Source: a virus
Virus record (IMG/VR): IMGVR_UViG_3300020185_000242
Location: 1-25,249 of that record
DNA: 25,249 nt
Reading direction: 5' to 3' (one strand)
Shown here: positions 1 through 25,249 of the stretch, piece after piece
Position numbering within the stretch: the first letter of the stretch is position 1
How the letters are laid out: every line of letters starts with the position of its first letter
Position numbers and translations under genes: made by a program
The notes under the pieces: model-generated
Told to the model about the DNA's origin: nothing
The model's input: only the letters and a program-made list of their open reading frames with translations
Databases searched by the model: none

Positions 1-901
1 CTTCCAATACTGCAATCTGAACTCCAGCAGTATAACGAGCAATAAATCTAACATTTTTAGACCCATCTAAATCTGCCATATCCAATACTTTGATTTCGTT
101 TTGGTCGTTTAATAAACCAGTTCCGAAATATAAGTTAGATTTCAAAGTTGATACCATTGTATCATCAGCTAATCCGTTTGCACATACAACCTTGATTCCA
201 TCGAAGTACTGAATATCGATATCTTGGTTTGTTCCCATTGCCATTGAACCGTTTCCACCTTTTCCATCTGCTTGGAATCCGCCTAATGCTCTCTTGTATG
301 CTCTCCATACGTTTTGAGATACATAAATGTATAAATCTTCGTTTCCGTATAAAGAAGATGGTACTGCATCAGCAACCTTTCCTAATTCATCGATTACGTT
401 TGCAGCAGTTACAGAAACTCCAGTAATGTCTTGACCAGCTGGTAAAGTAGCAGCAGTTAATAATGTAGCAAAACCATCAAATGTTCCAGCACCAGCAGTT
501 CCACTCCAGATGTCTTGTTCTGTTTGTTGTGCAATCTCTCCAGCCATTAATCCGATAAAGTAATCAGAAAATGTTGATGGCATATTGTCGTGTGCAGAAT
601 ACCCCATTGATACAGCTTCCCAGTCTGATTGAAAAGGAGTTTTACAAAGTTCTAAATTTACTTGTAATTCCTTTGGCTCAATAATTCTTTCAGTTAATAC
701 AACTGCTCCAGCATCTGTAAAGTCACAACTTGCATTTGCAATTGCTCCAGATAAACTTACTCTTTTTAATACTTCTTTAAACTTTACGTTTGGCTTAACT
801 TCGATTAATCCGTTTGCGATTGTGTTTCCAGAAAGCAACGCTGCCGAAACGTACTTACCCGCAAATTCCCCAGAATATGTACTCGTAATTGATAAACTCA
901 T
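1..901 (-). CDS. Major capsid protein (partial, C-terminus off the left edge)
   Basis: This is an open frame of 300 codons that starts with ATG at 901 and is still open at base 1. The N-terminus reads MSLSITSTYSGEFAGKY, followed by a long alpha/beta protein. Typical capsid features include EIAQQTEQDIWSG, a region around LYIYVSQNVWRAYKRAL and a late FIARYTAGVQI segment. It follows the prohead protease and a Glu-rich scaffold candidate, the usual place for the shell subunit, and is the last late gene in view. It should form the icosahedral shell, probably with the HK97 fold (inference from context and general look). The assignment to major capsid is fairly secure; the fold and full length cannot be judged from here. 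Confidence 0.8.
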   Translation of the reverse strand, partial: MSLSITSTYSGEFAGKYVSAALLSGNTIANGLIEVKPNVKFKEVLKRVSLSGAIANASCDFTDAGAVVLTERIIEPKELQVNLELCKTPFQSDWEAVSMGYSAHDNMPSTFSDYFIGLMAGEIAQQTEQDIWSGTAGAGTFDGFATLLTAATLPAGQDITGVSVTAANVIDELGKVADAVPSSLYGNEDLYIYVSQNVWRAYKRALGGFQADGKGGNGSMAMGTNQDIDIQYFDGIKVVCANGLADDTMVSTLKSNLYFGTGLLNDQNEIKVLDMADLDGSKNVRFIARYTAGVQIAVLE

Positions 902-2710: not shown

Positions 2711-4567
2711 TTAAATTGATGCACCTTCAATTGTATTCCTATCCATTTCTTGTGAAGTTGTAACGTCAGCAGAAACTACATAAGCCCTCGTTGGTTCTTG
2801 TGATTGTGAACCGATAGAATCAGCCAATTGACTTGTTTCACTTGCTCCAACAACATTAAACGCTGGAGGTGCAGATGGAATGCTAACACCACCACCAGAT
2901 GGAGCAGAACCGCCACCCCCAGAATTTGGTATTTTAACCGCTGTTATTTGTTTAACAGTTTTTAAACCAGTTGATAAGATACCAGCAGCATTTACAAATT
3001 TTAAAGCAGTATCAAAAGGAGTAAAAGTTTTTGCTGCTAATGCATCTGTTACACCTTGATAGGTATTCATTGTTGCGGCTGCTATTGCCATACCTTTTCC
3101 AGCAGCAGTACTTTCTCCAAGCACAGAACTCAATGAACCCAACGCTCCAATTGTTCCTTGCACCCTTTTCTTGGTTGCTTCTTCTTGTACTTTTTCAAGG
3201 TCTATTTTTGCCTTTGCAATCTCTTTTGTTCTTGTTAAATCTGTTTGCCTTGATTGTTCTGTAAATTCATTCAATGCTATTTCAGCATCAATCTTTGCTT
3301 GTGTTCCAGCATTTGCATTTTCAACGATAGCTTCTAACCTTAAAGTTTCTTGTTCTTTTTCAAGTTCATCAATTTCTTTTAATTTAGTTAACCTTAAAAG
3401 TTCATCTTCTATTTGTTCAGCATTAAACCTTTTTTGTTCGATGCTTAAATTAGATTCTGATTCTAACCTTGCGTTTGTTAACTCTAAAGATTCTTTATTA
3501 AGAGCATTTTCGTTTGACATTTGCTCTGAACGAATACCTTCAATTTGTGCCCTAACTGCTGCTAATTCTTTTACAGCTTCTATCTGTGCAACTTGTGATT
3601 CAACATTGTTTTTATCTCTTTTAAGGTCAGCATTTGCAACTCTTAACTGCATTTGTGCTTGTGCTAACATTCCTTTTTCAGCATCAGCAATCTTTACAAG
3701 TAATTCATCATTTGCTTTTTTACGCTCCGCAATTGACTTCGTTTCATCATCTCTTATTTGTCGTAATTTTTCCGCTTGTCTATCAAAAGTTTCAAAGATT
3801 AAACCTTGTCTTGCAGCAGCTAATTCAGCAGATTTCTGTAAATCAACATTTGCTTTTGCAGTATCGTAAGCAGCAGTAACACTTACTTTTCCAAGTTCTT
3901 CAATAACTGTTGAACCAACTTTACCAACCTCTGAAACCGCTTCTCCGAAATTATTATAGATTGTTACCGCAGCACCAACTGCTTCATCAGCAACTTCTTT
4001 CATATTGTCTTTGGTTTCTAAAATAGCAGCATTTAATCTTTTAATTTCTTTTGGGTCGCCATCTCCAAAAAAGGATTCCTCCCAAGCTAATTGTGCTGCT
4101 TGCATACCTAACTGAATGCCGTAAAAAGCCATTTTAAAAGGTGCTAACACAGATGTTAGAATACCACTCATAACCTTTCCAAGTGCATCGAATTGGTCTG
4201 TTGATTGTGTTAATACATCGTAAATATTTGTAAAAGCATTTACAACTTCTCCAACAACAATAGCAGCAGTTTCAAAAACTGTATTAAATAAATCAACCGC
4301 TTTCTGGTTTTGAGAAAATAGTTCTTTTAAGCTACTTAATGCGGATATAACTAAACCAATACCAATTGCCTTTAAAGTTGTACCAACAGCTTTGATTCCT
4401 TTTGCAGCACTCTTTGAAGCACCTTGAACACCCTTTAAAGATTTCTCTGTTGCTTTATTTGAACTAACAACTTCTTTATTTAAGTCCTCAACACTTTTCG
4501 CAACCGAATCAATTCCCTTTAATGCCTTGTCTGTTTTTGCTTGTAATTCAACAACTATTTTTTCCAT
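2711..4567 (-). CDS. Tail tape measure protein
   Basis: This 618-residue protein has the build of a tape measure. A Lys/Ser/Ala-rich helical start (LQAKTDKALKGIDSVAKSVE) is followed by hydrophobic helices around residues 65-80 (AIGIGLVISALSSLKELF) and 100-115. A long Glu/Ala/Leu/Arg coiled coil spans about 215-480. A second hydrophobic Gly/Ala patch (IGALGSLSSVLGESTAAGKG) precedes a low-complexity Gly/Ser/Pro linker near 550 (GGGGSAPSGGG). Tape measures set tail length and fill the tube; at about 1.5 angstrom per residue this one would suit a tail of roughly 90 nm. It starts inside the end of a 47-residue gene. Unusually, it is followed directly by head genes and is separated from the chaperone by several genes. 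Confidence 0.85.
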   Translation of the reverse strand: MEKIVVELQAKTDKALKGIDSVAKSVEDLNKEVVSSNKATEKSLKGVQGASKSAAKGIKAVGTTLKAIGIGLVISALSSLKELFSQNQKAVDLFNTVFETAAIVVGEVVNAFTNIYDVLTQSTDQFDALGKVMSGILTSVLAPFKMAFYGIQLGMQAAQLAWEESFFGDGDPKEIKRLNAAILETKDNMKEVADEAVGAAVTIYNNFGEAVSEVGKVGSTVIEELGKVSVTAAYDTAKANVDLQKSAELAAARQGLIFETFDRQAEKLRQIRDDETKSIAERKKANDELLVKIADAEKGMLAQAQMQLRVANADLKRDKNNVESQVAQIEAVKELAAVRAQIEGIRSEQMSNENALNKESLELTNARLESESNLSIEQKRFNAEQIEDELLRLTKLKEIDELEKEQETLRLEAIVENANAGTQAKIDAEIALNEFTEQSRQTDLTRTKEIAKAKIDLEKVQEEATKKRVQGTIGALGSLSSVLGESTAAGKGMAIAAATMNTYQGVTDALAAKTFTPFDTALKFVNAAGILSTGLKTVKQITAVKIPNSGGGGSAPSGGGVSIPSAPPAFNVVGASETSQLADSIGSQSQEPTRAYVVSADVTTSQEMDRNTIEGASI

Positions 4568-4698
4568 CTTATATCTTGTTTTTGTCTTGTAAATATTTCT
4601 TTAAAACTATCTGGAAACTTATTTTTTCCCTTTGCTAACTGCACAACCTCTGCCTTACAATCTGTATCCTTTAATAAATCTAATATTTCTTTTATCAT
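4555..4698 (-). CDS. Small protein between baseplate-like and tape measure genes
   Basis: A 47-residue frame, MIKEILDLLKDTDCKAEVVQ and onward, ending TRQKQDIRWKK. Its ATG overlaps the stop of the upstream 675-residue gene in an ATGA junction, and its TAG lies 13 bp inside the tape measure gene, a tight fit typical of a translated coupled gene. It is basic at the C-terminus and probably helical. Function unknown. Confidence 0.6.
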   Translation of the reverse strand: MIKEILDLLKDTDCKAEVVQLAKGKNKFPDSFKEIFTRQKQDIRWKK

Positions 4699-6722
4699 AA
4701 GTCATTTAATAATTCAATTTCAGATTTACCATTCTTGAAATTTGTTGTTATAGAATTTATTTTATATTGATGGTCTCCAATTATAAACCTATCCGCTAAA
4801 CTATAATTTAATAATATTTTCATTGGTAAGTAAGCACTTATTTTTGTAATTCTGTTCTTTGGATTAAATACACTTGTTATATAGTTTTTATAAAACACTT
4901 CAAATAAAGTATCTGTAAAATCATTTAAACCAGTATATTCATTTACTTCTGCATAAAAGTTTATGTTTTGTGTTCCGCTCATTCTACTTAAATAAACACT
5001 ATTTGATGGTATATTATAAATAGTTTGTTGAACGTGTGTTGTTTCATCTGTTAAAAAAGAAATAGTTGTAGTATTTGTTGACTGTCTAATAGGATAAAAT
5101 ATTAACGGCTTACCAAAATAACTTTCTTGATTATCATCTACATAATAACCAACTTGAACAGTTGTATTTAAATTATTATTTTCATTTACTAAACGCTCAT
5201 ATTTTAATTGTGAAAATGGTGTTTTAATATTATAGATTCCACCATCTAATTTTTCGCCACCTACATAAGATTCTTTTCCCCAAGTTTTACCAAATTTTTG
5301 AGAATGGTTTGCTGCTAAAAATGTTTTTGTGTCTTCGTGTTCAAAATTTATTTCTCTATATGGCAAAGATATATTAACAGAACTTTTACTATTGTCAACG
5401 TATTTTGTAATGTCATAAGAACCTCCATCATTATAAAAATCATCTAAAGTTTTTACAATTATATCTCCACTATTTTTATCAATATAAGCAGTCAAATTAA
5501 ACGTTTTAAATATTCCAGTTAAGAAATCAATAGTTTTCATTTCTGGTATTTGTTGACTAATAATAAATTCAAATAAACTAACGTGATTATATGTTCCAGT
5601 TGGATAAACTGCATTTTCATCAGCACCGCCATATGGTCTGTATGTTATATCCCATTCAATTTCAGAAAAAGTTATATCAGTTGAAGATTCTATAAAAACA
5701 GTATAATCCCCTCTTTGAATATCAAAATCTGATTCATCAATTAAAACCCCTTGCGTTATACTACCAGTATTGTAAACCTCAACCCCATCTTTTTGCAAAG
5801 AAACTTTATAAGAATCTGTTGTTGTTGATGTAAAGGTTAAGCTATACGATAAGTATCTTGTTGGGTCTCCACTTACTCTCATTGTAGTTGAACTAACCAT
5901 TTCTGTTGCTGCAACTGGTTGAGATATTGTACCAAGCCAACCATCAACAATTGATTGATTAACACCAGTTAGATTTTCAACATTCCCTTTCTTTCTGTGT
6001 AACCAAAGAAATAAATTATAGTAATGCTCATTTGAACTATTGAAAAAGTCATCACTAAAAGTAAGACCATATTTTGTTGCAATTGCTTCTACTATTTTAG
6101 AAACTCTAATAGCGTATTTTAAATCACTCCAAAGAACTCCGTGATTGTGACCACTACCAGTTTCATAATATAAATTGCCACTTAACAAATCATCGTGTGC
6201 GTGTCCAGAAGTACTATCGTAAAATAACCTCTTTGTGTGAGAAATCAAAGGCACAATTACATCGTTTGTAGTAGGGTCAAATGTTAAAGCACTTCTAACG
6301 GCAGTATTACTATACTCTTTGTCGTATGTAGTTAAGTCCAAAGATTGTAGTTTATCATCGCCTAATAGGTCTTTTAAGGTAACTGTACTACCAAAGAATG
6401 TTATTCTATATGTATGTGGTTTATTGTCCTTTAAATCAACTCCCTCAAGTTTTATTTTACCATCTTTAAAAGGTAAACTATTTAGTTCGATATAAGAATC
6501 CTTTTTAATTCTTGCATCAAAACCATCAACTATATCAAAATTATAATAATGCTTAAATATCTTGTTATTTGTTTTACTTGCTGGTAAACTAAACGTTCTT
6601 GAAAATGCTGTGAATATCTTACCAATATCTTTAACGTTCTGAATGGTATCTGTTATTGAAACAGTTTCATCCTTGAACATATCAACTCTTTCTCCCTCAA
6701 TATATAGTTGTATATTTTGCAT
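4695..6722 (-). CDS. Large tail protein, probable baseplate hub
   Basis: A 675-residue beta-rich protein. The N-terminus (IQLYIEGERVDMFKDETVSI) is followed by FSRTFSLPASKTNNKIF and ITFFGSTVTLKDLL. A middle segment reads MKTIDFLTGIFKTFNLTAYI and DIIVKTLDDFYNDGG; the C-terminus is LADRFIIGDHQYKINSITT followed by a final SEIELLNDL. The pattern of a domain near LTGIFKTFNLTAYID, then a strand reporting on a coordinate-like term, resembles tail hub or tail-associated proteins of siphoviruses. It abuts the upstream 374-residue tail gene with no gap. The tail assignment is fairly firm from context; the hub role is inferred. Confidence 0.6.
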   Translation of the reverse strand: MQNIQLYIEGERVDMFKDETVSITDTIQNVKDIGKIFTAFSRTFSLPASKTNNKIFKHYYNFDIVDGFDARIKKDSYIELNSLPFKDGKIKLEGVDLKDNKPHTYRITFFGSTVTLKDLLGDDKLQSLDLTTYDKEYSNTAVRSALTFDPTTNDVIVPLISHTKRLFYDSTSGHAHDDLLSGNLYYETGSGHNHGVLWSDLKYAIRVSKIVEAIATKYGLTFSDDFFNSSNEHYYNLFLWLHRKKGNVENLTGVNQSIVDGWLGTISQPVAATEMVSSTTMRVSGDPTRYLSYSLTFTSTTTDSYKVSLQKDGVEVYNTGSITQGVLIDESDFDIQRGDYTVFIESSTDITFSEIEWDITYRPYGGADENAVYPTGTYNHVSLFEFIISQQIPEMKTIDFLTGIFKTFNLTAYIDKNSGDIIVKTLDDFYNDGGSYDITKYVDNSKSSVNISLPYREINFEHEDTKTFLAANHSQKFGKTWGKESYVGGEKLDGGIYNIKTPFSQLKYERLVNENNNLNTTVQVGYYVDDNQESYFGKPLIFYPIRQSTNTTTISFLTDETTHVQQTIYNIPSNSVYLSRMSGTQNINFYAEVNEYTGLNDFTDTLFEVFYKNYITSVFNPKNRITKISAYLPMKILLNYSLADRFIIGDHQYKINSITTNFKNGKSEIELLNDL

Positions 6723-7847
6723 CTATCGAATGTTGTTTATAGCATCAAAAGAATAAGATAGTTCTATTGTGTAATCAACTAACTTATCATTTACACTTGT
6801 TTTAAATTTTAAGTTTTTACTTTCTACATTCATTGGTATGTTCTTTCCATCAACACGCATCCAAACCAATTCAGATTGCAACAACTCTTGCATTGGTGCA
6901 TTATACTCTTCGCTTACATAACCAGTATTAAGTGTTATTTTCTTTGTTGATTTTACATTGAAAGCTACATTCTGATGTTCATTTGTTCCATAAAAACCAT
7001 CTGTATTTGATTTCTTAAATTGCTCTCTTGTTGTACCTAAAGTTTCATCTGATTTTTTAAAGAACCATAAATCTTGAAAAGCACCCCATCGATTAATAAA
7101 CACAACTTTTTTTGGTTCGTATTTACATTCGTCAACAGTAATAACTTTTATTGTTTCTAATCCTTCAGTTGTTCCAATTCTTACTTCATCAACTTCATAC
7201 AATTCGTATTCATCTAAAAATTGTTTTACACATTCATTTTCTTCGTAAACCGCTTTTGGATAACTAACCGATGATGCACTTTCAATCCTATCTTTAAAAC
7301 TTTGTGAGGTGTAACCAGTATTACTAACATAATCAACACCACTAAATTTAACCATACCGCCAACTTGAGAATGTACTATCTCTCCTTTATAAAGAAAAGC
7401 AACGCTTGTTGTGTTCTCTGTTGCATAAGGAATTGATATTTCTGAATCAGCAAGTTTATAGATAACTTTATTTGAAAGTAAACAACCCTTTGTGACTTCT
7501 GGATTTCTACCATCTTCAAAGTAGCCATAGCCATCAAGACCAATTTTATCAACCGAAGTTGTAGAAACAACAGTACCAGTTCCATTTACACCAGTATAAG
7601 ATGTACCAACTAATTCAAATTCAACATTGTCAACAAGTTTTTCATTATTGTCGTAAAGGTAAATACCAACGTAATCTCTTACCAATTCTGAATACTCAAA
7701 ATTTATAAAAGTGTTGGTTCTTCTGTTTTTTATAATTTCATATAAAACAAATCCATTTGAATTTTTTATCTCAAGTTTTACAGAACCTCCAACTGGTGCT
7801 GATTTAGTGAAATACGCTGGACTTCTTAATAGTACATAATCTGCCAT
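6723..7847 (-). CDS. Tail protein, possibly distal tail or baseplate component
   Basis: A 374-residue beta-rich protein. It begins MADYVLLRSPAYFTKSAPVG and continues with strands such as VKLEIKNSNGFVLYEIIKN. Cys residues lie near 122, 205 and 240. Its last part, NLKFKTSVNDKLVDYTIELS, has the style of phage structural beta domains. It ends exactly one base before the hub candidate begins and follows the two tail-completion genes after a 1-bp gap, so the four are likely co-translated. I infer a structural tail role from this cassette; the specific part (distal tail, minor tail or receptor-linked) cannot be decided here. Confidence 0.55.
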   Translation of the reverse strand: MADYVLLRSPAYFTKSAPVGGSVKLEIKNSNGFVLYEIIKNRRTNTFINFEYSELVRDYVGIYLYDNNEKLVDNVEFELVGTSYTGVNGTGTVVSTTSVDKIGLDGYGYFEDGRNPEVTKGCLLSNKVIYKLADSEISIPYATENTTSVAFLYKGEIVHSQVGGMVKFSGVDYVSNTGYTSQSFKDRIESASSVSYPKAVYEENECVKQFLDEYELYEVDEVRIGTTEGLETIKVITVDECKYEPKKVVFINRWGAFQDLWFFKKSDETLGTTREQFKKSNTDGFYGTNEHQNVAFNVKSTKKITLNTGYVSEEYNAPMQELLQSELVWMRVDGKNIPMNVESKNLKFKTSVNDKLVDYTIELSYSFDAINNIR

Positions 7848-7848
7848 C

Positions 7849-8352
7849 TTATTTGTTGTTTATTGTATTCTTCATTAATTGTTCTACATCTAATTTGTAT
7901 GCTTCTATCAAATCTTTACTTAATCCTTTGAATGCTTTTTCAAATGGTTTTGTAAAGAATAAACTCGGTTTAATACCATTATTATAAATACTTCTTGCAA
8001 TCATAAACTGCAATGATTTTCTGCTGATGAATTTACCATCCTTATCTCTTGGTGCAATACCTTTCTTTACAATCCACTTATCCATTTTTGATGGAGGAGG
8101 CATTTTGCTTGTATATGAATATGGTGTGTTATATTTTTTCTTTACACCACTTACACCCTTATCTTGAAATAATCCATAATCTTCCATCAAGAAAGATAAC
8201 TCAAAACTGTTTTTAGAAACCTTTACTTCGGAATCTAAACTATTATATAAATCTTTTGAACTGTTCTTTTTGCCCCTTGTTAGATTCGCTCTTGATTGGC
8301 TTATAACATATTTAGCAAACCTATTTAGTTCGTCTTTTACATTGGCTAACAT
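7849..8352 (-). CDS. Neck or tail completion protein, HK97 gp10-like
   Basis: A 167-residue basic protein. Features resembling gp10-type tail completion or head-tail joining proteins are an N-terminal helix with ISQSRANLTRGKKNSSKDLY, a central FLMEDYGLFQDKGVSG motif, a Tyr/Pro/Lys-rich loop (KYNTPYSYTSKMPPPSKMDK), and a C-terminal helix ending in SLFFTKPFEKAFKGL. The segment YGLFQDKGVSG matches the typical 'aYa.y.EfGt' strand-loop position of the gp10 fold. It overlaps the upstream gene by 7 bp. Such proteins cap the tail or connect it to the head. Family assignment is by pattern, so moderate. Confidence 0.55.
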   Translation of the reverse strand: MLANVKDELNRFAKYVISQSRANLTRGKKNSSKDLYNSLDSEVKVSKNSFELSFLMEDYGLFQDKGVSGVKKKYNTPYSYTSKMPPPSKMDKWIVKKGIAPRDKDGKFISRKSLQFMIARSIYNNGIKPSLFFTKPFEKAFKGLSKDLIEAYKLDVEQLMKNTINNK

Positions 8353-13638: not shown

Positions 13639-14262
13639 TTAAAACATTGTTAATTGTTGTTGGTGTTCTTTTAATCTTTTCATTGCTGCTTCATAGTAAT
13701 CTTTATCTAATTCACAAGCGGTTAAATCGTATTTAAGATTATGACAAGCCAAAGCAATACTTCCACTACCTAAATGTGTATCGAGTATTTTATCGCCCTC
13801 TTTTGCGTAGTTCATTAAAAGCCATTCATATAGTTTTACTGGTTTTTGTGTTGGGTGTATTGGCTTATCTTTCCAGATATGCGTTCTGTGTATATTTACA
13901 ACTCTTGTAGGACTTTTTATATTAGAATATGCTAACTCGCAATCTGACATTGTTAAACCCATTTGCCCTTTATACCATACAATCCATCCTTTACTTTTCT
14001 CTAAAAATTGTGGAAAGTAATTTGCACCCCAAATAATTTGATGCTTACTTACTCTTTTTAGTTCGTTAAAATAATCTTCGTTAGGGCATTCGTTATCCCA
14101 ATCTTTAAAAGTATGTGCTTTTCTAATTTGAACACCATCCTTTGTGTCTCCTTTTTGCCCATCTATTCCAATCCCATAAGGTGGGTCAACTATCGCAAGG
14201 TCAAAGTAGTTATCTTCATACCTTGCCATTAGCTCCATATTATCTTCGTTTGTTATGTTCAT
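13639..14262 (-). CDS. DNA adenine or cytosine-N4 methyltransferase, orphan
   Basis: A 207-residue protein with DPPY at residues 26-29 (motif IV, in FDLAIVDPPYGIG), HPTQKPV at 136-142, and DTHLGSGSIALAC at 161-173 (motif I, SAM binding). Motif IV comes before motif I, which is the beta-class order of N6-adenine and N4-cytosine methyltransferases. It transfers a methyl group from S-adenosylmethionine to DNA. No restriction endonuclease gene is adjacent, so I infer an orphan enzyme that protects phage DNA or marks replication. The target site cannot be read from sequence. It starts ATG at 14262, 3 bp after the upstream gene. Confidence 0.88.
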   Translation of the reverse strand: MNITNEDNMELMARYEDNYFDLAIVDPPYGIGIDGQKGDTKDGVQIRKAHTFKDWDNECPNEDYFNELKRVSKHQIIWGANYFPQFLEKSKGWIVWYKGQMGLTMSDCELAYSNIKSPTRVVNIHRTHIWKDKPIHPTQKPVKLYEWLLMNYAKEGDKILDTHLGSGSIALACHNLKYDLTACELDKDYYEAAMKRLKEHQQQLTMF

Positions 14263-15244: not shown

Positions 15245-15634
15245 TTATATATTTATTATTGTTGCATAAGATTTTTTAAGAACCCAAAATTCTTTATCTA
15301 TTCTTTTCTTATTATTAAAGTCAGTTGTTGCTGGTACGTTATAGAATCTCTTTGGTATTGAATCCAAATCAAGTTTACTTATATTGAATACATAAACACC
15401 AGTTCCATCTGCTTGGATATAAAGATAATCTTTATTCTGGTCTTTTGCTTTCTTCATATTGATAACAGTTTTATTAACCTCCAGAAATGGGTCTTTGTGG
15501 TTTGCTCTTCTGTTTTTTATCTCAACAATATAATTATCATCAAATGCATCATACGAACTAAATTCATCTGTGTGTTCAATTAGTTTAGTGCCAGAAGTTT
15601 TATTTATAAAATTAACTGTTTGTTTTTGATTCAT
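15245..15634 (-). CDS. Small PD-(D/E)XK-like nuclease protein (copy 1)
   Basis: A 129-residue protein starting at ATG 15634 (an upstream ATG at 15697 would add 21 residues and overlap the previous gene further). It shows FSSYDAFDDNYIVEIKNRRA: Asp29 followed by Glu38-x-Lys40, a PD-(D/E)XK nuclease core. A C-terminal half with GVYVFNISKLDL, FYNVPATTDF and KEFWVLKK is shared with the protein at 16834-17226, so the two are paralogs. A structure-specific or dedicated nuclease role in replication or recombination is inferred. Starts 23 bp inside the upstream 88-residue gene. Confidence 0.6.
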   Translation of the reverse strand: MNQKQTVNFINKTSGTKLIEHTDEFSSYDAFDDNYIVEIKNRRANHKDPFLEVNKTVINMKKAKDQNKDYLYIQADGTGVYVFNISKLDLDSIPKRFYNVPATTDFNNKKRIDKEFWVLKKSYATIINI

Positions 15635-15878
15635 TTTCTTTTTGTTTATCGTAGTTATAAATCTTGGTGTATAAATCCCAAATTGATTGATATGCATCTT
15701 GTAAATTAAATTCTTTCCCTTGCATATAATACTGAACGCTATGCCCTCTTTGATACTTTACTTTATAGTTTGCACCAGCTGGTTCTAAAGTTATCATAAA
15801 CCCCTTATTAAAGCAATATGATTGTGCTTTATGGTCGCAGTTCTTAAAAGGTTTTAGTTTCTTCTTAATCTTCGCCAT
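15612..15878 (-). CDS. Hypothetical phage protein
   Basis: An 88-residue basic protein, MAKIKKKLKPFKNCDHKAQS, with CDHKAQSYC near its start (Cys14, His16, Cys22), then FMITLEPAGANYKVKYQRGH and LQDAYQSIWDLYTKIYNYDK. It overlaps the genes on both sides by 14-23 bp, which supports translation. Basic N-terminus and a Cys/His pair might bind nucleic acid or metal, but nothing else is visible. Function unknown. Confidence 0.6.
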   Translation of the reverse strand: MAKIKKKLKPFKNCDHKAQSYCFNKGFMITLEPAGANYKVKYQRGHSVQYYMQGKEFNLQDAYQSIWDLYTKIYNYDKQKENESKTNS

Positions 15879-16833: not shown

Positions 16834-17226
16834 TTATTTTAGTTTTTTTGCTTTGTTTATGTTTAGTTCTGTAATCTCTTTTTTTACCCAAAAACGTTTC
16901 TTAAATTCTGTTGTTGCTGGAAGTGATTTAGTAAACCACTTTTGCTCAATGTCATTTAGGTTGAATAAATAGATTCCTTCTGGTGTACTATTTATGTAAA
17001 TTGGAATATCAAAATTTTTATCTGATTCTTTTAAAATAGCATCGTACTTTGATTTCTCAAGAATTAATGTATCGTAATGTTTACGCCTACACTTTAGTTC
17101 TATTCTATTTTGTGTTTCAATATCGTAGCAATCCCATCTTGATATTGGATTTTTACTATTTACTAATGTTTTGTAATGGTTTTTTGATAGCCATTCAAAT
17201 AAATCTTTTTCTTTCCAGTTGGTCAT
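16834..17226 (-). CDS. Small PD-(D/E)XK-like nuclease protein (copy 2)
   Basis: A 130-residue protein starting at ATG 17226; a GTG at 17244 would add six residues. It has SRWDCYDIETQNRIELKCRR, giving Asp32/Asp35 followed by Glu43-x-Lys45, a PD-(D/E)XK nuclease core. Its last third, GIYLFNLNDIEQKW, LPATTEFKKRFWVKKE, matches the C-terminal half of the protein at 15245-15634, so both come from one ancestor. The copies differ in their cores. Nuclease activity and role are inferred; neither is proven. Confidence 0.6.
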   Translation of the reverse strand: MTNWKEKDLFEWLSKNHYKTLVNSKNPISRWDCYDIETQNRIELKCRRKHYDTLILEKSKYDAILKESDKNFDIPIYINSTPEGIYLFNLNDIEQKWFTKSLPATTEFKKRFWVKKEITELNINKAKKLK

Positions 17227-17249
17227 ATTTTGTAAATATAACACATTTG

Positions 17250-18104
17250 TTAAAAAGTATAATCGTTGTTTATAAACTCTGGTAATTCATTATTATTTAT
17301 CTGGAAGCTGAACGTTTCAAATGGTCTGTTTCTACTTCTTTTGCACTCAACAGTTACCCAACCTTTGTTGGCATTATTTTTCTCTAACTTAATTTGGCTT
17401 TCCGCTTTCTTCTCAAGTGCTGAACCTAAATTTCCGCTTGGCTTGTCGCTCCCAAAGTTTTGGTGTATAATCGTTGTAATATGACAATTTAATTTACCAG
17501 ACCATTGCAATAGTTTTTCAGCAACATTATTTGCTTGTTCCATATTATTCACATCAGAACATAAATCTGCACATCCATCAATAATAACCAAACCTATTTT
17601 TTCGTTTTCAAATTTATCAAATAAAATGTGTTCAATAAAATCAATTTTACTTTGCCAACCAAATTCACGCATTGCATAGATATGATAATCTTTATCGTTT
17701 TGCAATTGATTCATTACTAAAGGTCGCCTTGCTAATTTACTAACGTGGAATCTTCCTTGCTCTGTATCAAAATGAATTATCTTTCTTCCTCTTCGATGTC
17801 CTTTTATTTTACCACTATAACTATTTGAACCGCTTTGATAAGCTGATACAAGTAAACTCATAAAGAAACTTTTACCAACCTTTGGAAATGCTTGTACAAA
17901 AGAGAAATTACCATCTGTACCAATTGGAACTGGGTATTCTGTATAACTACCATCAAAATTTCTATCTTGGTAAATTCCGCAGCTAATAGCAACTGGCGGA
18001 TATTTAATAACTTCTTCAACATCAATACTTGCATCTTCTTCAAGTTGCTGCATTAACATTCTTGTTGTTTCTTTATCCTCCTCCAAATTTATTTTGTTCA
18101 TCAT
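17250..18104 (-). CDS. RecA/RepA-type ATPase, probable replicative helicase or loader
   Basis: A 284-residue protein with a P-loop fold. Walker A is AFPKVGKS (72-79), a HFDTEQGRFH strand (111-120) carries the likely catalytic Glu115, Walker B is LVIIDGCAD (172-180), and the sensor strand TTIIHQNFG is at 210-218. The pattern matches the AAA_25 and RepA/DnaB-like ATPases that drive DNA unwinding, which fits a place in the replication block. The two Met residues at the start are 3 bp apart; 18104 is used. It overlaps the GIY-YIG gene by 32 bp. Confidence 0.78.
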   Translation of the reverse strand: MMNKINLEEDKETTRMLMQQLEEDASIDVEEVIKYPPVAISCGIYQDRNFDGSYTEYPVPIGTDGNFSFVQAFPKVGKSFFMSLLVSAYQSGSNSYSGKIKGHRRGRKIIHFDTEQGRFHVSKLARRPLVMNQLQNDKDYHIYAMREFGWQSKIDFIEHILFDKFENEKIGLVIIDGCADLCSDVNNMEQANNVAEKLLQWSGKLNCHITTIIHQNFGSDKPSGNLGSALEKKAESQIKLEKNNANKGWVTVECKRSRNRPFETFSFQINNNELPEFINNDYTF

Positions 18105-18507
18105 CTATATATTTCTGTATTTTTGTTTTATAAAATTTGCCAAGAATATTATCGTTTAGGAATTTATCACTTTCCAAAACATTCTCTTTGAACTGTAACA
18201 TAGTTTCGTAATATGTCATCATTGTTCGATTGTAGCAAATATACATTATTTCTCGGTAACAATCTTCAACACCCCAAATCTTTGTATGGATATTGCTTCC
18301 AGTATATTTTAACCAATTGCTTTCAACATATTCAATTCTCTTCCTCTTATATCCTTTTAACGGTGGTTTAGTACGCTTATTAAGGAGTATCTTTTTACCA
18401 ATATACAATTTGTCTGTTTTTAGATTTCGTATCTTATAAACGAACCCAATTGCTTCTAATGGTAAATCAGTTCTACTTGTAATCTCTTTGCCTTTGTATA
18501 CCCACAT
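18073..18507 (-). CDS. GIY-YIG endonuclease-like protein
   Basis: A 144-residue protein from ATG 18507. It shows GFVYKIRNLKTDKLYIGKK: FVY (22-24) and YIG (35-37) of the GIY-YIG nuclease fold, then a basic stretch, and YYETMLQFKENV with Glu101 at the usual metal-binding place and SDKFLNDNILGKFY (Asn119) near the end. Enzymes of this type cut one or both strands in phage recombination or as mobile homing nucleases. A GTG start at 18534 would lie inside a terminator hairpin, so the ATG is preferred. It ends overlapping the ATPase start. Confidence 0.7.
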   Translation of the reverse strand: MWVYKGKEITSRTDLPLEAIGFVYKIRNLKTDKLYIGKKILLNKRTKPPLKGYKRKRIEYVESNWLKYTGSNIHTKIWGVEDCYREIMYICYNRTMMTYYETMLQFKENVLESDKFLNDNILGKFYKTKIQKYIDDEQNKFGGG

Positions 18508-18510
18508 AAG

Positions 18511-18539
18511 TAAAAAAAGGGATGCTATTAACACCCCTT
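18511..18539 (-). terminator. Terminator or attenuator just before the GIY-YIG start codon
   Basis: In minus-strand RNA, AAGGGGTG (18539-18532) pairs with CATCCCTT (18524-18517), 8 bp with one G-U, loop of 7 bases, then seven T (18518-18512). The start codon at 18507 follows after 4 bases. The SSB-like gene ends at 18551. Sitting 5 bp before the next gene, it should reduce, not abolish, expression of the downstream part, or be read through. Confidence 0.7.
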
Positions 18540-19020: not shown

Positions 19021-19575
19021 TTATTGTTTTAATGCGTCTTTTGTGTTCTTTGAAATCTTGTATTTTGATTCAACGTTTGCTAAATTACCACCACCTTTTA
19101 AATATGCTTTTACTTTTGTAAATTCTGGTGTGTTTTCATTCAACCAAGGTTTATCATCGTTTGTTGCTTTGCTTGTTACTTTGCTTGTTGCTTTTCCGTG
19201 TGTGTTTGTTGAATCAGCATCTTTTGTGTCATCAATTAAAAACAATCCGTTTAAAGAGTATTTACGAGCATAACTGCTGCTGCTACCAAAAGATTGTGCA
19301 ATGTCCATTCCTTTTCTGTTTGGGTCAATCCCAGCTTGTGCCTTAACGTGTACTTGGTTTTCTCCATCAGATATGATTGAAACTGCTTCAACAAATAAGA
19401 TTCCACCAAGTTCTTTGATTTCGTCTGATACTGTTAATGTGCAATTGTATTTATTCAAAAGCGGTTTAACTGCTTCCAGAATATCTTCACAACTTCTGTA
19501 ATTGTACTTACCAAAATTATTTCTTTGGTTCTTTGGTGCTTTTAATTCGGCTTGAATTTTCTGTAATTTTTCCAT
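19021..19575 (-). CDS. ERF-family single-strand annealing protein
   Basis: A 184-residue protein with the ERF superfamily N-domain (about 1-125): LQKIQAELKAPKNQRNNFGK, then YNYRSCEDILEAVKPLLNKY, then AQSFGSSSSYARKYSLNGLF, the Gly/Ser/Tyr segment typical of ERF. The C-terminal 50 residues are a short linker plus a basic helix. It anneals complementary single strands in phage recombination, probably with the exonuclease at 16071-16832 and the SSB-like protein. Start ATG at 19575; length is in range for phage ERF proteins. Confidence 0.9.
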   Translation of the reverse strand: MEKLQKIQAELKAPKNQRNNFGKYNYRSCEDILEAVKPLLNKYNCTLTVSDEIKELGGILFVEAVSIISDGENQVHVKAQAGIDPNRKGMDIAQSFGSSSSYARKYSLNGLFLIDDTKDADSTNTHGKATSKVTSKATNDDKPWLNENTPEFTKVKAYLKGGGNLANVESKYKISKNTKDALKQ

Positions 19576-21844: not shown

Positions 21845-22198
21845 TTAGAATTTTAAAGCATCGTAGTTCAATCCAAAGAAAGCGTGTACACCATCTCCAT
21901 CAATATCAACACTTTTTGATTTCCAACCATATGGATGGTCAACTGTTCCATCTTCGTCAGCTTCTAATCCATTCCATAGAACATCAACGTGCCAATCGTC
22001 AGATAGTACTGCTTCTGTTTCTATTTCTCCATCTTCGTCAATTACTGCTTGTTCTAAAACAATATTTCCTAAATGTACGATTGTGTGTTTGTGAGTTGGG
22101 TATTCGTTTCCGTCCTCATCTGTTGCTGTTCCTAATGCATCAATTTTTGTTTGTGCTGCTTCTCTACTATCGAACTGATATTTTCCTAATTTAATCAT
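21845..22198 (-). CDS. Acidic hypothetical protein upstream of lysis genes
   Basis: A 117-residue acidic protein, MIKLGKYQFDSREAAQTKID, then LGTATDEDGNEYPTHKHTIV and a C-terminal HPYGWKSKSVDIDGDGVHAF. Repeated Asp/Glu turns and Gly (DEDGN, DIDGDG) suggest a small beta protein, perhaps calcium-binding or tail-fibre-associated. It lies between the fibre genes and the lysis cluster. No family recognised. Confidence 0.6.
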   Translation of the reverse strand: MIKLGKYQFDSREAAQTKIDALGTATDEDGNEYPTHKHTIVHLGNIVLEQAVIDEDGEIETEAVLSDDWHVDVLWNGLEADEDGTVDHPYGWKSKSVDIDGDGVHAFFGLNYDALKF

Positions 22199-22301: not shown

Positions 22302-23495
22302 TTAACTTGTTAATGCAATTAGTTCTTGGTCTGTTAATGCTGTGTTGTATAATTTTAAATCTGCTATATTAAATGTTCTTTCATCAACTTGAGCATCAGA
22401 CAGACCACCAGTTTGAATTGAATCCCAATTAACCATACTTGCTGATACTGTATATGTTCCTAATTTAACCCCATTAGCGTATTTATGAAAAGATGTTCCA
22501 TCATAAGATATTGCAAATTTAGAATCAGTTAGTGAATTATAACAAATACCTATATTTATAGAAGAAGAACCATTAAAATAATACCAAACTTTATTGTAAA
22601 TATGTAACCCTCCACCACTATCATAAGCACTTTCTCCAGCACCTAAATTAAGCATAATATTATCAAAGTTGCCAACCCCACCATTTACTTCTAAAAACTT
22701 TGTAGCATCAAAAAACAAAGTAAACTGATTTGTTGCTTGTAGTATTGGCGAATTAATTCTTTTAGAATATTCTACTGTCCTCGTTACTGCACTTCCAGAT
22801 GTAGGGATATACGATGTAGCGTAACTGCCAGCTTCTAATTGGTGTCCAAAGTAAGCAATTGATGAATTACCTACACCTATAACTTGACCAAAATAACCTC
22901 TAATAATGGTTGTTGCAGAACCATCAGTTATGTTAAAAACTGCTTCAAATCTATCGTAACCATTTACATCACTTTGTATTTGAGTTGTTGAACCTACTTG
23001 TGTAGCGTTTTGTATAAGAGCAAAATATAAATCCCCTACATAAGAAACATTTATAGGTGTGGATATTCTTTTTCTATACCAAGAATAAGCCAATTTTTCG
23101 TTTGTGGAATATGTTCCTCCACTTATTGCGTATTCGTATCTATCAGAAGTACTATCTGGCGTTGGTATTACTGCGTTGTTTGTGCCATCTGGAGAAATTG
23201 TATTTGTTTCAGATGCTGGGCTATTGCCATAAGCTCCACTTGCACTTGTTAAAACTAAATTACTCCTACTCGGTTCTAACAATAAAGCACCTTTAGTATT
23301 ATCCTTAAAATCAATTCTTGGTTCTCCACTACCAACTGTTTCGATTAAACCATCTTTGTTTACAACAGTAGCACTACTATTTCTGCTGAATGAAAAAGTT
23401 AATGGCTTGTAATTAGAGTTTAAATCGTTATAGGCAAGCACCGTATCTTTACCAGTTGCCCATTGTCCGTTGCCCAGTTTAAGTGTATTACTCAT
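22302..23495 (-). CDS. Lectin-like tail fibre protein, copy 1
   Basis: A 397-residue beta-rich protein. It begins MSNTLKLGNGQWATGKDTVL, shares an N-terminal module (WAT-K, AYND, NYKPLTF, then KDGLIETV) with the next gene, and has the phage-structural segment GSYATSYIPTSGSAVTR (about 227-243). The C-terminal part fits a LamG/concanavalin A-like domain ending in FNIADLKLYNTALTDQELIA. Host-receptor binding at the tail tip is the likely role. It overlaps the upstream copy by 8 bp. The pair differ in their receptor parts. Confidence 0.72.
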   Translation of the reverse strand: MSNTLKLGNGQWATGKDTVLAYNDLNSNYKPLTFSFSRNSSATVVNKDGLIETVGSGEPRIDFKDNTKGALLLEPSRSNLVLTSASGAYGNSPASETNTISPDGTNNAVIPTPDSTSDRYEYAISGGTYSTNEKLAYSWYRKRISTPINVSYVGDLYFALIQNATQVGSTTQIQSDVNGYDRFEAVFNITDGSATTIIRGYFGQVIGVGNSSIAYFGHQLEAGSYATSYIPTSGSAVTRTVEYSKRINSPILQATNQFTLFFDATKFLEVNGGVGNFDNIMLNLGAGESAYDSGGGLHIYNKVWYYFNGSSSINIGICYNSLTDSKFAISYDGTSFHKYANGVKLGTYTVSASMVNWDSIQTGGLSDAQVDERTFNIADLKLYNTALTDQELIALTS

Positions 23496-24723
23496 TGTGT
23501 ATAATATTTAAGTTTAATTCTTTTACCATTTCTTCCCAAGTTCTGTAAGATGTAAGCGTTTCTAATTCAAGGTCTGTTAAAACTTCATCATAGTATGAAA
23601 TTTCTTTTGTTTTTCCGTAGAAAGGAAGAGTACCATTACCATATCTAAAATCTAATTGACTTAATCCAGTTGGTAAGCTACTTAAAGCACCACTATCGGA
23701 TAAAAATCCGTTAATAAAAACCTTTGCCCCACTTGAACTATAAGATATTGAGAGTTTATTTAATGTAGTTATATCGCCTAATACTTGATTATAACTATAT
23801 CTGTTAGTAGTTGCTCTTACAATAAAATTTACTTCATTACTTGATGCAGCGTAACCCATCCTAATAACGTTACTACCACTATTATCATTTATAGAAATAA
23901 CTTTACTTGTTAAATCATTTGCATTCGCAGCTATGTTTGCAAATAGAGTTCCTTGACTATCAGAAAAAACTTCCGAGTTTCCAGAACCACTTGCAGTTTC
24001 TTGCACTCGAGTTTGGATTGTGCCTTGTGTTGGTATGTATGAAGATGCTATGTTTCCACTTTCTAATTGCGCTGCGAATATATCTATATCAATACTATCA
24101 CTATGTAAACTATTACCAGTTATTCCAATTCTAAATTCTGCATTTAAAACACCTCCTTCAACTTTTAATCTTTGCCACTTATTTGATACTGGTAATGTAA
24201 CTCTATCAGATGCTGCGTTAACACCAATAAAAAATGTTTGTTCTACGTTAAGATTATTTTTTACATATAAAGATTTAGCACAAGTAAATGGTGTACCGCT
24301 AAAACCGCTTAACTTAATATAAGACCTATCTGAAGATGTGTTACCACCATTTAATACACATTGTATTCTTGATGCGTTTTTAGTTCCGTCTGGTGAAATA
24401 GAATAATTACTTGTTAAAGTGGCAAGCGAACCAGTCCCTTGTGAATAATTAATCCATTGACTAAAATCCTCACTATAAGTAACTAAATTTGTAGCTGCCT
24501 TTTCCAAAAGAAATACCCCATCTTCGCTATCTGTATAATCTATTCTTGGTCTGTCGTTTTCTACAACCTCAATTAAACCTTGTTTGTTTACTCTTGTACC
24601 TTTACCAGCACCAGTATATGTAAATGGTAATGGTTTAAAGTTTCCATCCTCATCATTATAAGCAAGAGTTGAACCCTTTTTAGTTGCCCACGTTCCGCCA
24701 CCAAATTTTAAAGTGTTTGCCAT
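23488..24723 (-). CDS. Lectin-like tail fibre protein, copy 2
   Basis: A 411-residue beta-rich protein. It starts MANTLKFGGGTWATKKGSTL, has the same N-terminal module as the gene at 22302-23495 (NKQGLIEVVE, RPRIDY, FLLEKAATNLVTYSEDF), the ASSYIPTQGTIQTRVQE segment, and a LamG-like C-terminus KEISYYDEVLTDLELETLTS with an extra tail TWEEMVKELNLNIIHNE. It probably binds a host surface structure. It follows a homing-type endonuclease after 2 bp. Tandem duplication of a fibre gene is clear. Confidence 0.72.
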   Translation of the reverse strand: MANTLKFGGGTWATKKGSTLAYNDEDGNFKPLPFTYTGAGKGTRVNKQGLIEVVENDRPRIDYTDSEDGVFLLEKAATNLVTYSEDFSQWINYSQGTGSLATLTSNYSISPDGTKNASRIQCVLNGGNTSSDRSYIKLSGFSGTPFTCAKSLYVKNNLNVEQTFFIGVNAASDRVTLPVSNKWQRLKVEGGVLNAEFRIGITGNSLHSDSIDIDIFAAQLESGNIASSYIPTQGTIQTRVQETASGSGNSEVFSDSQGTLFANIAANANDLTSKVISINDNSGSNVIRMGYAASSNEVNFIVRATTNRYSYNQVLGDITTLNKLSISYSSSGAKVFINGFLSDSGALSSLPTGLSQLDFRYGNGTLPFYGKTKEISYYDEVLTDLELETLTSYRTWEEMVKELNLNIIHNE

Positions 24724-24725
24724 AT

Positions 24726-25229
24726 CTATTTTGTTAAATTATATTCTTTTAATTTATCTAATTGCGTCAATGCAAAATTGTATGCTATTGATGCTCTATG
24801 TTCGGATTTAAAATATCCTAAATATATTTGATTACCATCAACTATTATTGATGACTGCCATTTTTTGTCATTTTTATGCCAAGTTACACCAGCGTAATTT
24901 GAATACTTATTATCTCTATCTTTAGTTGAATTCTCTCTTTGTGATATTACTTGTAAATTAGATAATCTGTTATCTGTTTTAACATTGTTAATATGGTCTA
25001 CAACAATATAGATGTTACTTTTGTGATTTAAAAAAGATTGAGCAACTAAACTATGCACAGTTTTAGTTTCTGCCTTTCCATCTTTACAAAGAGAAACTTT
25101 TAAATAACCATTACTTAAATTTGTTTTAGACAGTATCTTTTCTTTATTAAACTTAATACTCTTAACTCTACCTAAATCACTAACTTGATAGCTACCCTCG
25201 TATCCTTTTATGTCTTTCCAATTTTCCAT
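24726..25229 (-). CDS. NUMOD4-HNH-AP2 homing endonuclease
   Basis: A 167-residue protein with NUMOD4 (WKDIKGYEGSYQVSDLGRVK, residues 3-22), an HNH core (VHSLVAQSFL, then VVDHINNVKTDNRLSNLQVI around 77-96) and an AP2-type DNA-binding domain (YAGVTWHKNDKKWQ and LGYFKSEHRASIAYNFAL). It makes a cut in DNA and probably spreads itself into target genes. It lies directly before the fibre gene pair, a common place for such mobile genes. The start is 25229, 20 bp from the window edge. No interrupted gene or intron is visible nearby. Confidence 0.88.
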   Translation of the reverse strand: MENWKDIKGYEGSYQVSDLGRVKSIKFNKEKILSKTNLSNGYLKVSLCKDGKAETKTVHSLVAQSFLNHKSNIYIVVDHINNVKTDNRLSNLQVISQRENSTKDRDNKYSNYAGVTWHKNDKKWQSSIIVDGNQIYLGYFKSEHRASIAYNFALTQLDKLKEYNLTK

Positions 25230-25249
25230 ACTACTAATATAGTGAATTT

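Follow-up and report, generated by a model that had tools for sequence, protein, structure and literature searches.

In phage T4, free-standing homing genes that cut a neighbouring gene are established, as is marker exclusion (PMC2988022), and both have been reported for some HNH genes of Skunavirus, where two of the tested HNH enzymes were active against phage sk1 and five were not (PMC12724721). The title of a study on SegH and Hef, cited in the latter source, offers a precedent for replacement of homing genes at one site. Around fibre genes, T5-like phages differ in which putative homing genes they carry around the lateral tail fibre locus (PMC8594841), HNH proteins like those of Xanthomonas oryzae phages were proposed by Inoue et al. 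to take part in tail fibre domain duplication (via PMC2248197), and variable receptor-binding genes occur in otherwise near-identical phages (PMC7468147). The Endo VII-motif homing endonuclease F-CphI targets an intronless psbA gene (PMC6083498). Here we describe an HNH gene adjoining two tandem fibre genes, fibB and fibA, in IMG/VR virus record IMGVR_UViG_3300020185_000242, a linear virus contig of 25,249 bases analysed in full (the window), together with related loci from other viral contigs (L numbers). The HNH gene resides in a slot between fibre genes and appears to have replaced the DNA stretch that it probably cuts in rival viruses.

Relatives were collected in six scans, using fibA, fibB and HNH as queries and alignments of HNH, of fibC (the fibre gene preceding the slot) and of g21845 (a conserved gene after the last fibre), with the best 80 of 96 matches covered for g21845 and the best 80 of 466 for fibC. 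The array order in relatives was fibC, an optional HNH gene, further fibre genes and g21845. Merging 114 entries by identical 160-base context gave 83 distinct fibC-type junctions, of which 14 continued into HNH (filled) and 64 into a fibre gene (empty, including L144 with its rewritten end). The remaining five, four near contig ends plus L120, were unassigned and excluded from Fisher tests. A fibre gene followed HNH in 13 of the 14 filled junctions, the L022 sequence ending inside HNH. The gene is therefore an open reading frame (ORF) of its own between conserved genes and is optional among relatives. Among junctions retrieved via fibre, fibC or g21845 queries it was present in 8/77, a prevalence that is not bias-free because the fibC alignment used for fetching (A2) includes HNH-bearing members (5/9).

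HNH relatives of at least 50 % identity were located in the fibC/fibre slot in 13 of 14 cases, with L027 as the exception. The locus of the L027 relative (4351–4896) gave no fibre hits and has, close to that gene, an ORF resembling the window methyltransferase gene (13639–14262); no fibre hit was found either beside the HNH relatives at 46–47 % identity (L200–L202). In L120 the slot holds a different nuclease gene (7305–7979), encoding a 224-aa Endo VII-like protein that matches phrog_1035 (endonuclease VII), instead of NUMOD4-HNH. The fibB gene of L120 is split into two ORFs, and L122, on the same 58-kb contig, carries HNH. L144 combines a rewritten fibC end with a 34-base spacer and no HNH, which we read as the loss of a former slot occupant. 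A second slot, after the last fibre and before g21845 or the gene in its place, was seen to hold other nuclease genes: a NUMOD3 gene with a weak SegE GIY-YIG match (L091, 7364–7972), a NUMOD4-HNH gene (L208, 4491–5066) and, by sequence search, HNH relatives in L029, L030 and L240.

The candidate target is the fibC 3' end. The commonest empty junction reads CAATTATACACAATAGAATA, followed by the fibB start. In a scan of the viral collection the exact 20-mer was present in 54 viral contigs, always in frame at a fibC 3' end, and was followed by a fibre start in 53 of them (only 8 bases are present after it in L290) and by HNH in none. Conversely, a scan with the HNH start recovered 14 stretches, 13 from the same contigs as the filled junctions plus L323, with no copy of the 20-mer. 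At the junctions the exact 20-mer was found in 0/14 filled versus 37/64 empty cases (Fisher 4e-5), and ACAATA within the last 30 bases of fibC in 0/14 versus 53/64. Where the end encodes TIE, all three filled junctions (L018, L020 and L022) used ACC-ATC-GAG, against ACA/G-ATA-GAA in 43/43 empty ones; background usage is 3 % for ACC, 5 % for ATC and 23 % for GAG. As a control, each 24-mer at the fibB 3' ends of HNH-bearing loci was also present among HNH-free loci. In L026 the candidate site is split, with a rewritten fibC end in front of HNH and the native right part TTATACACAATAGAATA preserved intact where HNH ends. Two sister pairs of backbone B, L026 with L009 (94.3 % identical upstream) and L015 with L160 (96.0 %), retain the native 20-mer in the HNH-free member only. 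The last 15 bases of fibC, where differences are densest, differ from the nearest HNH-free relative by 6.3 mismatches in filled loci versus 1.6. In HNH-free loci this 20-mer was observed to be conserved at synonymous sites although the rest of fibC is very variable.

The HNH protein matched the Pfam families NUMOD4 (3.7e-17) and HNH_3 (2e-7) above cut-off, as the initial annotation had proposed; the AP2 part of that assignment fell below its cut-off (E 0.0037) and draws support from plant AP2 chains in PDB. The best solved relative was I-HmuI (1u3e; phmmer 3.5e-15 over residues 3–104), the match spanning both NUMOD4 and HNH. H59, D78, H79, N87 and N91 are invariant in the 13 aligned full-length relatives, which are 53–95 % identical to the window protein. 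HNH stands 2–36 bp from fibC and 2–6 bp from the next fibre gene (2 bp from its end to the fibB start in the window), spacings that leave no room for an intron, no dedicated intron search having been made. I-HmuI is intron-encoded; the window gene differs in being apparently free-standing, in its AP2-like C-terminal part and in its position within a fibre array.

At least two backbones carry the array. Backbone A, the window type, has a gene like that at window positions 2–901 and a portal gene before the array, as in L018. Backbone B (L009, L015 and L026) has a PHROG major head protein, a head–tail adaptor (shown in L009) and, by eye, an amidase-like gene before the array. For the pairs compared, blastn of L008 or L025 (A) against L015 or L026 (B) gave no match outside the array and g21845. 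The backbones of L015 and L026 are 91–92 % identical, whereas their HNH genes are 64 % identical and lie apart, with starred support, in the protein tree. The L015 gene has 97 % DNA identity to that of the window despite the different backbone, and the L026 gene matches those of L024 and L025 (backbone A) at 94 %. Near-identical HNH genes on unlike backbones indicate that the gene entered the same slot on different backbones. This points to transfer independent of the genome, and co-transfer with adjoining fibB DNA is also compatible: the similarity between the window and L015 begins 6 bases before HNH and extends about 270 bases into fibB. The gene may have moved either by cutting or by ordinary recombination with fibre DNA, the sequences being compatible with both routes. 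The initial reading of HNH as a homing gene associated with fibre genes is supported: the gene looks mobile, since it is optional, occupies the same slot and recurs on different backbones.

Exchange of the fibre middles was assessed in pairs of loci with at least 95 % identity over at least 800 bp upstream, a middle being counted as different below 60 % identity. In HNH-free pairs the fibC middles differed in 44/46 and the fibB middles in 19/19, with a mean identity of 88 % at the fibC start; these HNH-free loci fall into five groups, which makes their pairs strongly interdependent. The count omits 13 fibC sequences without the start motif (by eye, seven were lost solely through a motif defined too narrowly), and a broader count including L149, with its incomplete fibC ORF, gave 52/54 and 20/20. 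Pairs with HNH or the other nuclease were few: where both members were filled, the fibC middles differed in 2/3 pairs and the fibB middles in 1/1; where one was filled, the values were 2/2 and 1/1. Fibre cores with 88–99 % DNA identity were shared between loci without detectable upstream similarity, such as L123 and L160, and between array positions, as for fibB of L018 and fibC of L143 (92.7 % over 452 bp). Equally different middles in HNH-free pairs, together with cores shared across backbones and positions, make exchange a property of the array itself and support a view of the fibre genes as paralogues in tandem whose ends are conserved while their middles are exchanged. The exchange pattern anticipated by the initial annotation is thus present and independent of HNH. 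That HNH is necessary for fibre exchange was considered and rejected on the same pairs. A link between HNH presence and array size was likewise rejected: six HNH-bearing arrays had 2–3 fibre genes and 37 others, including L120 with its other nuclease and split fibB, had 2–5. Among arrays with both ends visible, 2–5 fibre genes were counted, three being commonest (25/43).

Taken together, HNH is probably a homing endonuclease gene of the free-standing kind, resident in the fibC/fibB slot and exploiting a recombining fibre array. The shared slot, the optional presence of the gene, the altered candidate site, the different backbones and the exchange of middles without HNH can all be read from the sequences. 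During a mixed infection the enzyme would cut genomes lacking HNH at, or close to, the 3' end of fibC, where CAATTATACACAATAGAATA is followed by the fibB start; both the cutting and the exact site are predictions. Repair would then copy the HNH gene with short flanks into the slot, with homing as the presumed route of transfer. The HNH-bearing allele would escape, its site split and its fibC end exchanged for a differently written one, which would confer immunity. The array itself diversifies whether HNH is present or not, as middles recombine between ends that stay conserved; the gene rides this hot spot, and the exchanged middles presumably serve in receptor binding.

Several points weigh against this interpretation. 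Cleavage by the HNH protein is predicted, and because fibre arrays recombine, spread of the gene with neighbouring fibre DNA requires no nuclease. The L027 gene (58 % identity over residues 1–106) and the more distant HNH relatives lie outside the slot, the 14 filled junctions were picked because they begin with fibC, and junction rows are not phylogenetically independent. In the window itself only the fibB side of the slot is visible. The exact 20-mer is missing from 27/64 empty junctions and, relative to the nearest HNH-free relative, filled fibC ends also differ more in the 60 bases upstream (mean 7.1 versus 2.6 mismatches), so that some of the change seen over the last 15 bases is explained by general divergence. 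The last two observations, with HNH-bearing fibC ends more diverged overall and HNH-free ends varying too, would also be expected if the different fibC ends reflected neutral divergence or descent rather than loss of a target. We regard this as rather doubtful given the three-codon synonymous rewriting into uncommon codons in L018, L020 and L022, which is absent from the 43 HNH-free TIE ends, and given the two sister pairs, where the native 20-mer is confined to the HNH-free member.

The initial annotation had suggested that the endonuclease may help to swap fibre alleles by cutting the fibre genes of rivals; taken further, it would be the engine of fibre exchange. The location of HNH within the array is in line with this, as is the co-conversion of flanks established for T4 homing genes (PMC2988022). 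One pair, L120 and L122, combines near-identical upstream DNA with a different slot gene. The two loci lie 36.9 kb from each other on a 58-kb contig, possibly a read-through of two strains; they share 99.8 % identity across 5.4 kb, ending just beyond the fibC stop, after which the slot gene, the fibB middle and the fibA middle all differ. This single case fits a crossover near the slot, and cutting at the fibC/fibB junction may make such a local contribution. As a general driver, however, the nuclease is very unlikely, as the middles of HNH-free relatives differ just as fully, fibC is exchanged although it lies upstream of the slot, and HNH is present in so few of the junctions retrieved by fibre, fibC or g21845 queries. 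At the other extreme, HNH could be an inactive or passive passenger moved only by fibre-array recombination. Fibre cores do change backbones without HNH, and ordinary recombination at fibB would carry just such a shared block of HNH plus the 5' module of fibB. Even so, this too is unlikely: the proteins are full-length with the five residues above invariant at 53–95 % identity, the candidate site is split, the left edge of the similarity between the window and L015 falls 6 bases before the HNH start, and another nuclease family occupies the same slot in L120.

The fibre genes were characterized further. As initially described, fibA and fibB share an N-terminal module and differ in the middle, aligning at 34 % over fibA residues 1–261 (E 5e-31), best in the first 60–80 residues and poorly in the middle. 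The claim of a common ending style holds as far as LTS in a '..LTD.EL..LTS' motif seen by eye near both ends, beyond which fibB alone has 19 further residues. The C-terminal tails were mostly position-specific (fibC ..QLYTIE; fibB ..LNIIHNE or ..ELNLNTL; fibA ..LTS/LTTI), with cores shifting between positions. NF048003.1, the phage head spike fiber domain, was matched above cut-off by fibA and fibB (78 bits each, cut-off 36) and likewise by the fibC proteins encoded in L008 and L026. A profile of 88 fibres, built from structure alignment A4 (86 of 105 listed fibre ORFs plus the two of the window), matched the RcGTA head spike fibre Rcc01080 (6tb9) at 1.7e-43 over profile positions 33–256, with weaker matches to baseplate and tail fibre chains. 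The initial label 'tail fibre' is therefore corrected to fibre, the domain being compatible with head as well as tail. In an AlphaFold2 model of fibB two confident beta-sandwiches (approximately residues 80–225 and 250–380) were obtained, and only these were used, as the N-terminus was not resolved, most of residues 1–75 having low confidence, and the predicted template modelling score was 0.46. The best Foldseek matches in PDB were lectin-like domains (laminin-G-type and others) and carbohydrate-binding modules, the TM-scores for the whole model reaching only 0.2–0.3. We take fibA, fibB and fibC as receptor-binding-type fibres of either head or tail. The suggestion that the duplication supplies two receptor specificities fits tandem paralogues with exchanged middles, the specificities themselves being a prediction.

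The features of the window are listed in Table 1. The initial coordinates and layout were confirmed, with all three ORFs on the minus strand, where the order 5' to 3' is HNH, fibB, fibA, g21845, small ORFs, an M15-type endolysin and a holin. The contig terminates 20 bases upstream of HNH, and this leader is identical (20/20) to the fibC–HNH spacers of L008 and L022, with 16–20/20 matches in 12 of 14 loci and 5–6/20 in L015 and L026. This identity indicates that a third fibre gene, fibC, probably sits just beyond the contig end.

Table 1. Positions of the HNH gene, fibre genes and other features in the 25,249-base window
Feature	Position	Strand	Description
HNH	24726–25229	minus	167 aa; free-standing HNH homing endonuclease gene, predicted (NUMOD4 + HNH_3 + AP2-like)
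Leader upstream of HNH start	25230–25249	minus	identical to fibC–HNH spacer of L008 and L022
fibB	23488–24723	minus	411 aa; receptor-binding-type fibre gene adjoining HNH
fibB conserved 5' module	24488–24723	minus	shared together with HNH as a single block: 94.6 % with L008; 89.7 % with L015, reaching about 35 bases further in
fibB head-spike-fibre (GTA_spike_fiber) domain	24007–24510	minus	residues 72–239, mostly within the exchanged middle
fibB LamG/ConA-like beta-sandwich	23566–23973	minus	residues 251–386; Laminin_G_3 below cut-off, structure model, profile search
fibB end/fibA start overlap	23488–23495	minus	8 bp; same in L003 and L007
fibA	22302–23495	minus	397 aa; last fibre gene of the array
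g21845	21845–22198	minus	117-aa conserved protein after last fibre
Erf-like single-strand annealing protein	19021–19575	minus	phrog_155, 9.7e-43
Presumed capsid gene	2–901		PHROG family of unknown function

In many relatives, of backbone A and backbone B alike, g21845 comes after the last fibre. Its product matched no family of known function in family searches, a structure model with a predicted local distance difference test score of 67 was set aside, and a role as fibre chaperone would be a guess. The Erf-like annealing protein is a plausible candidate recombinase for the exchange of fibre modules. Elsewhere in the window, the ORFs at 15245–15697 and 16834–17244 are paralogous to each other (30 % across 122 residues, E 5e-10), both containing an E-x-K-x-RR stretch that we take to be reminiscent of some nucleases. 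The ORF at 18073–18534, which matches phrog_447 (NAD synthetase, 7e-26) and phrog_7363 (homing endonuclease, 1e-10), is perhaps a second nuclease.

The nearest relatives of the window terminase are in Flavobacterium phages (50 %), from which a host in the Flavobacteriia may be guessed; a host search via HNH among genome contigs returned only six distant HNH relatives and no host assignment. The nearest cultured HNH proteins, those of Polaribacter phages P12002L (48 %) and P12002S (45 %), had no fibre homologue within the 10.5 and 8.5 kb examined, respectively. Nonlabens phage P12024L has a similar gene order (portal, one fibre, M15 peptidase and ERF), with no annotated HNH in the stretch examined.

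The natural set of filled and empty sites comes with a candidate target of 20 bases and with sister genomes that differ at it, which makes specificity and immunity directly testable. The findings also separate the exchange of fibre parts, which here needs no homing gene, from a homing gene exploiting the same locus: phages with 95–100 % identical DNA upstream of the array carry largely different fibre middles. It is possible, if speculative, that the slot is a battleground in which nuclease cassettes from unrelated families each bring along a rewritten end of the fibre gene they interrupt, break the fibre loci of rivals while keeping their own fibre working and travel between phages with adjacent fibre modules. 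If true, this would be a natural counterpart of engineered home-and-rescue drives.

Free-standing homing genes, a proposed HNH role in fibre duplication and variable receptor-binding genes are all known already. In the literature searched, mostly listings with few subscription papers covered, we did not see such a fibre array, a rewritten-end homing cassette that replaces the end of its neighbour, or a filled/empty census. A close parallel is with the T4-like homing genes SegF, SegG, MobE and others (PMC2988022), which likewise lie between two conserved phage genes, several cutting a neighbour, and many of which are promoter-less and overlap the upstream gene; here, by contrast, both neighbours are fibre paralogues and the end of the upstream gene is rewritten beside the insertion, cutting being predicted. 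I-HmuI (1u3e) and the I-HmuI-like HNH proteins of Skunavirus (PMC12724721) share the NUMOD4-HNH sequence match and several insertion places. The HNN-AP2 endonucleases of Xanthomonas oryzae phages (PMC2248197) are also free-standing HNH-AP2 genes, but are described there as having no conserved flanks and apparently sequence-independent insertion, whereas a shared slot is seen here. The L120 slot gene, through phrog_1035, has only the broad Endo VII family in common with F-CphI (PMC6083498). Among fibres, the likeness to Rcc01080 (NF048003.1; PMC10218006) is that of the 88-fibre profile match, from which the present proteins differ in a C-terminal LamG-like domain outside the match and in their tandem array, which may sit on head or tail.

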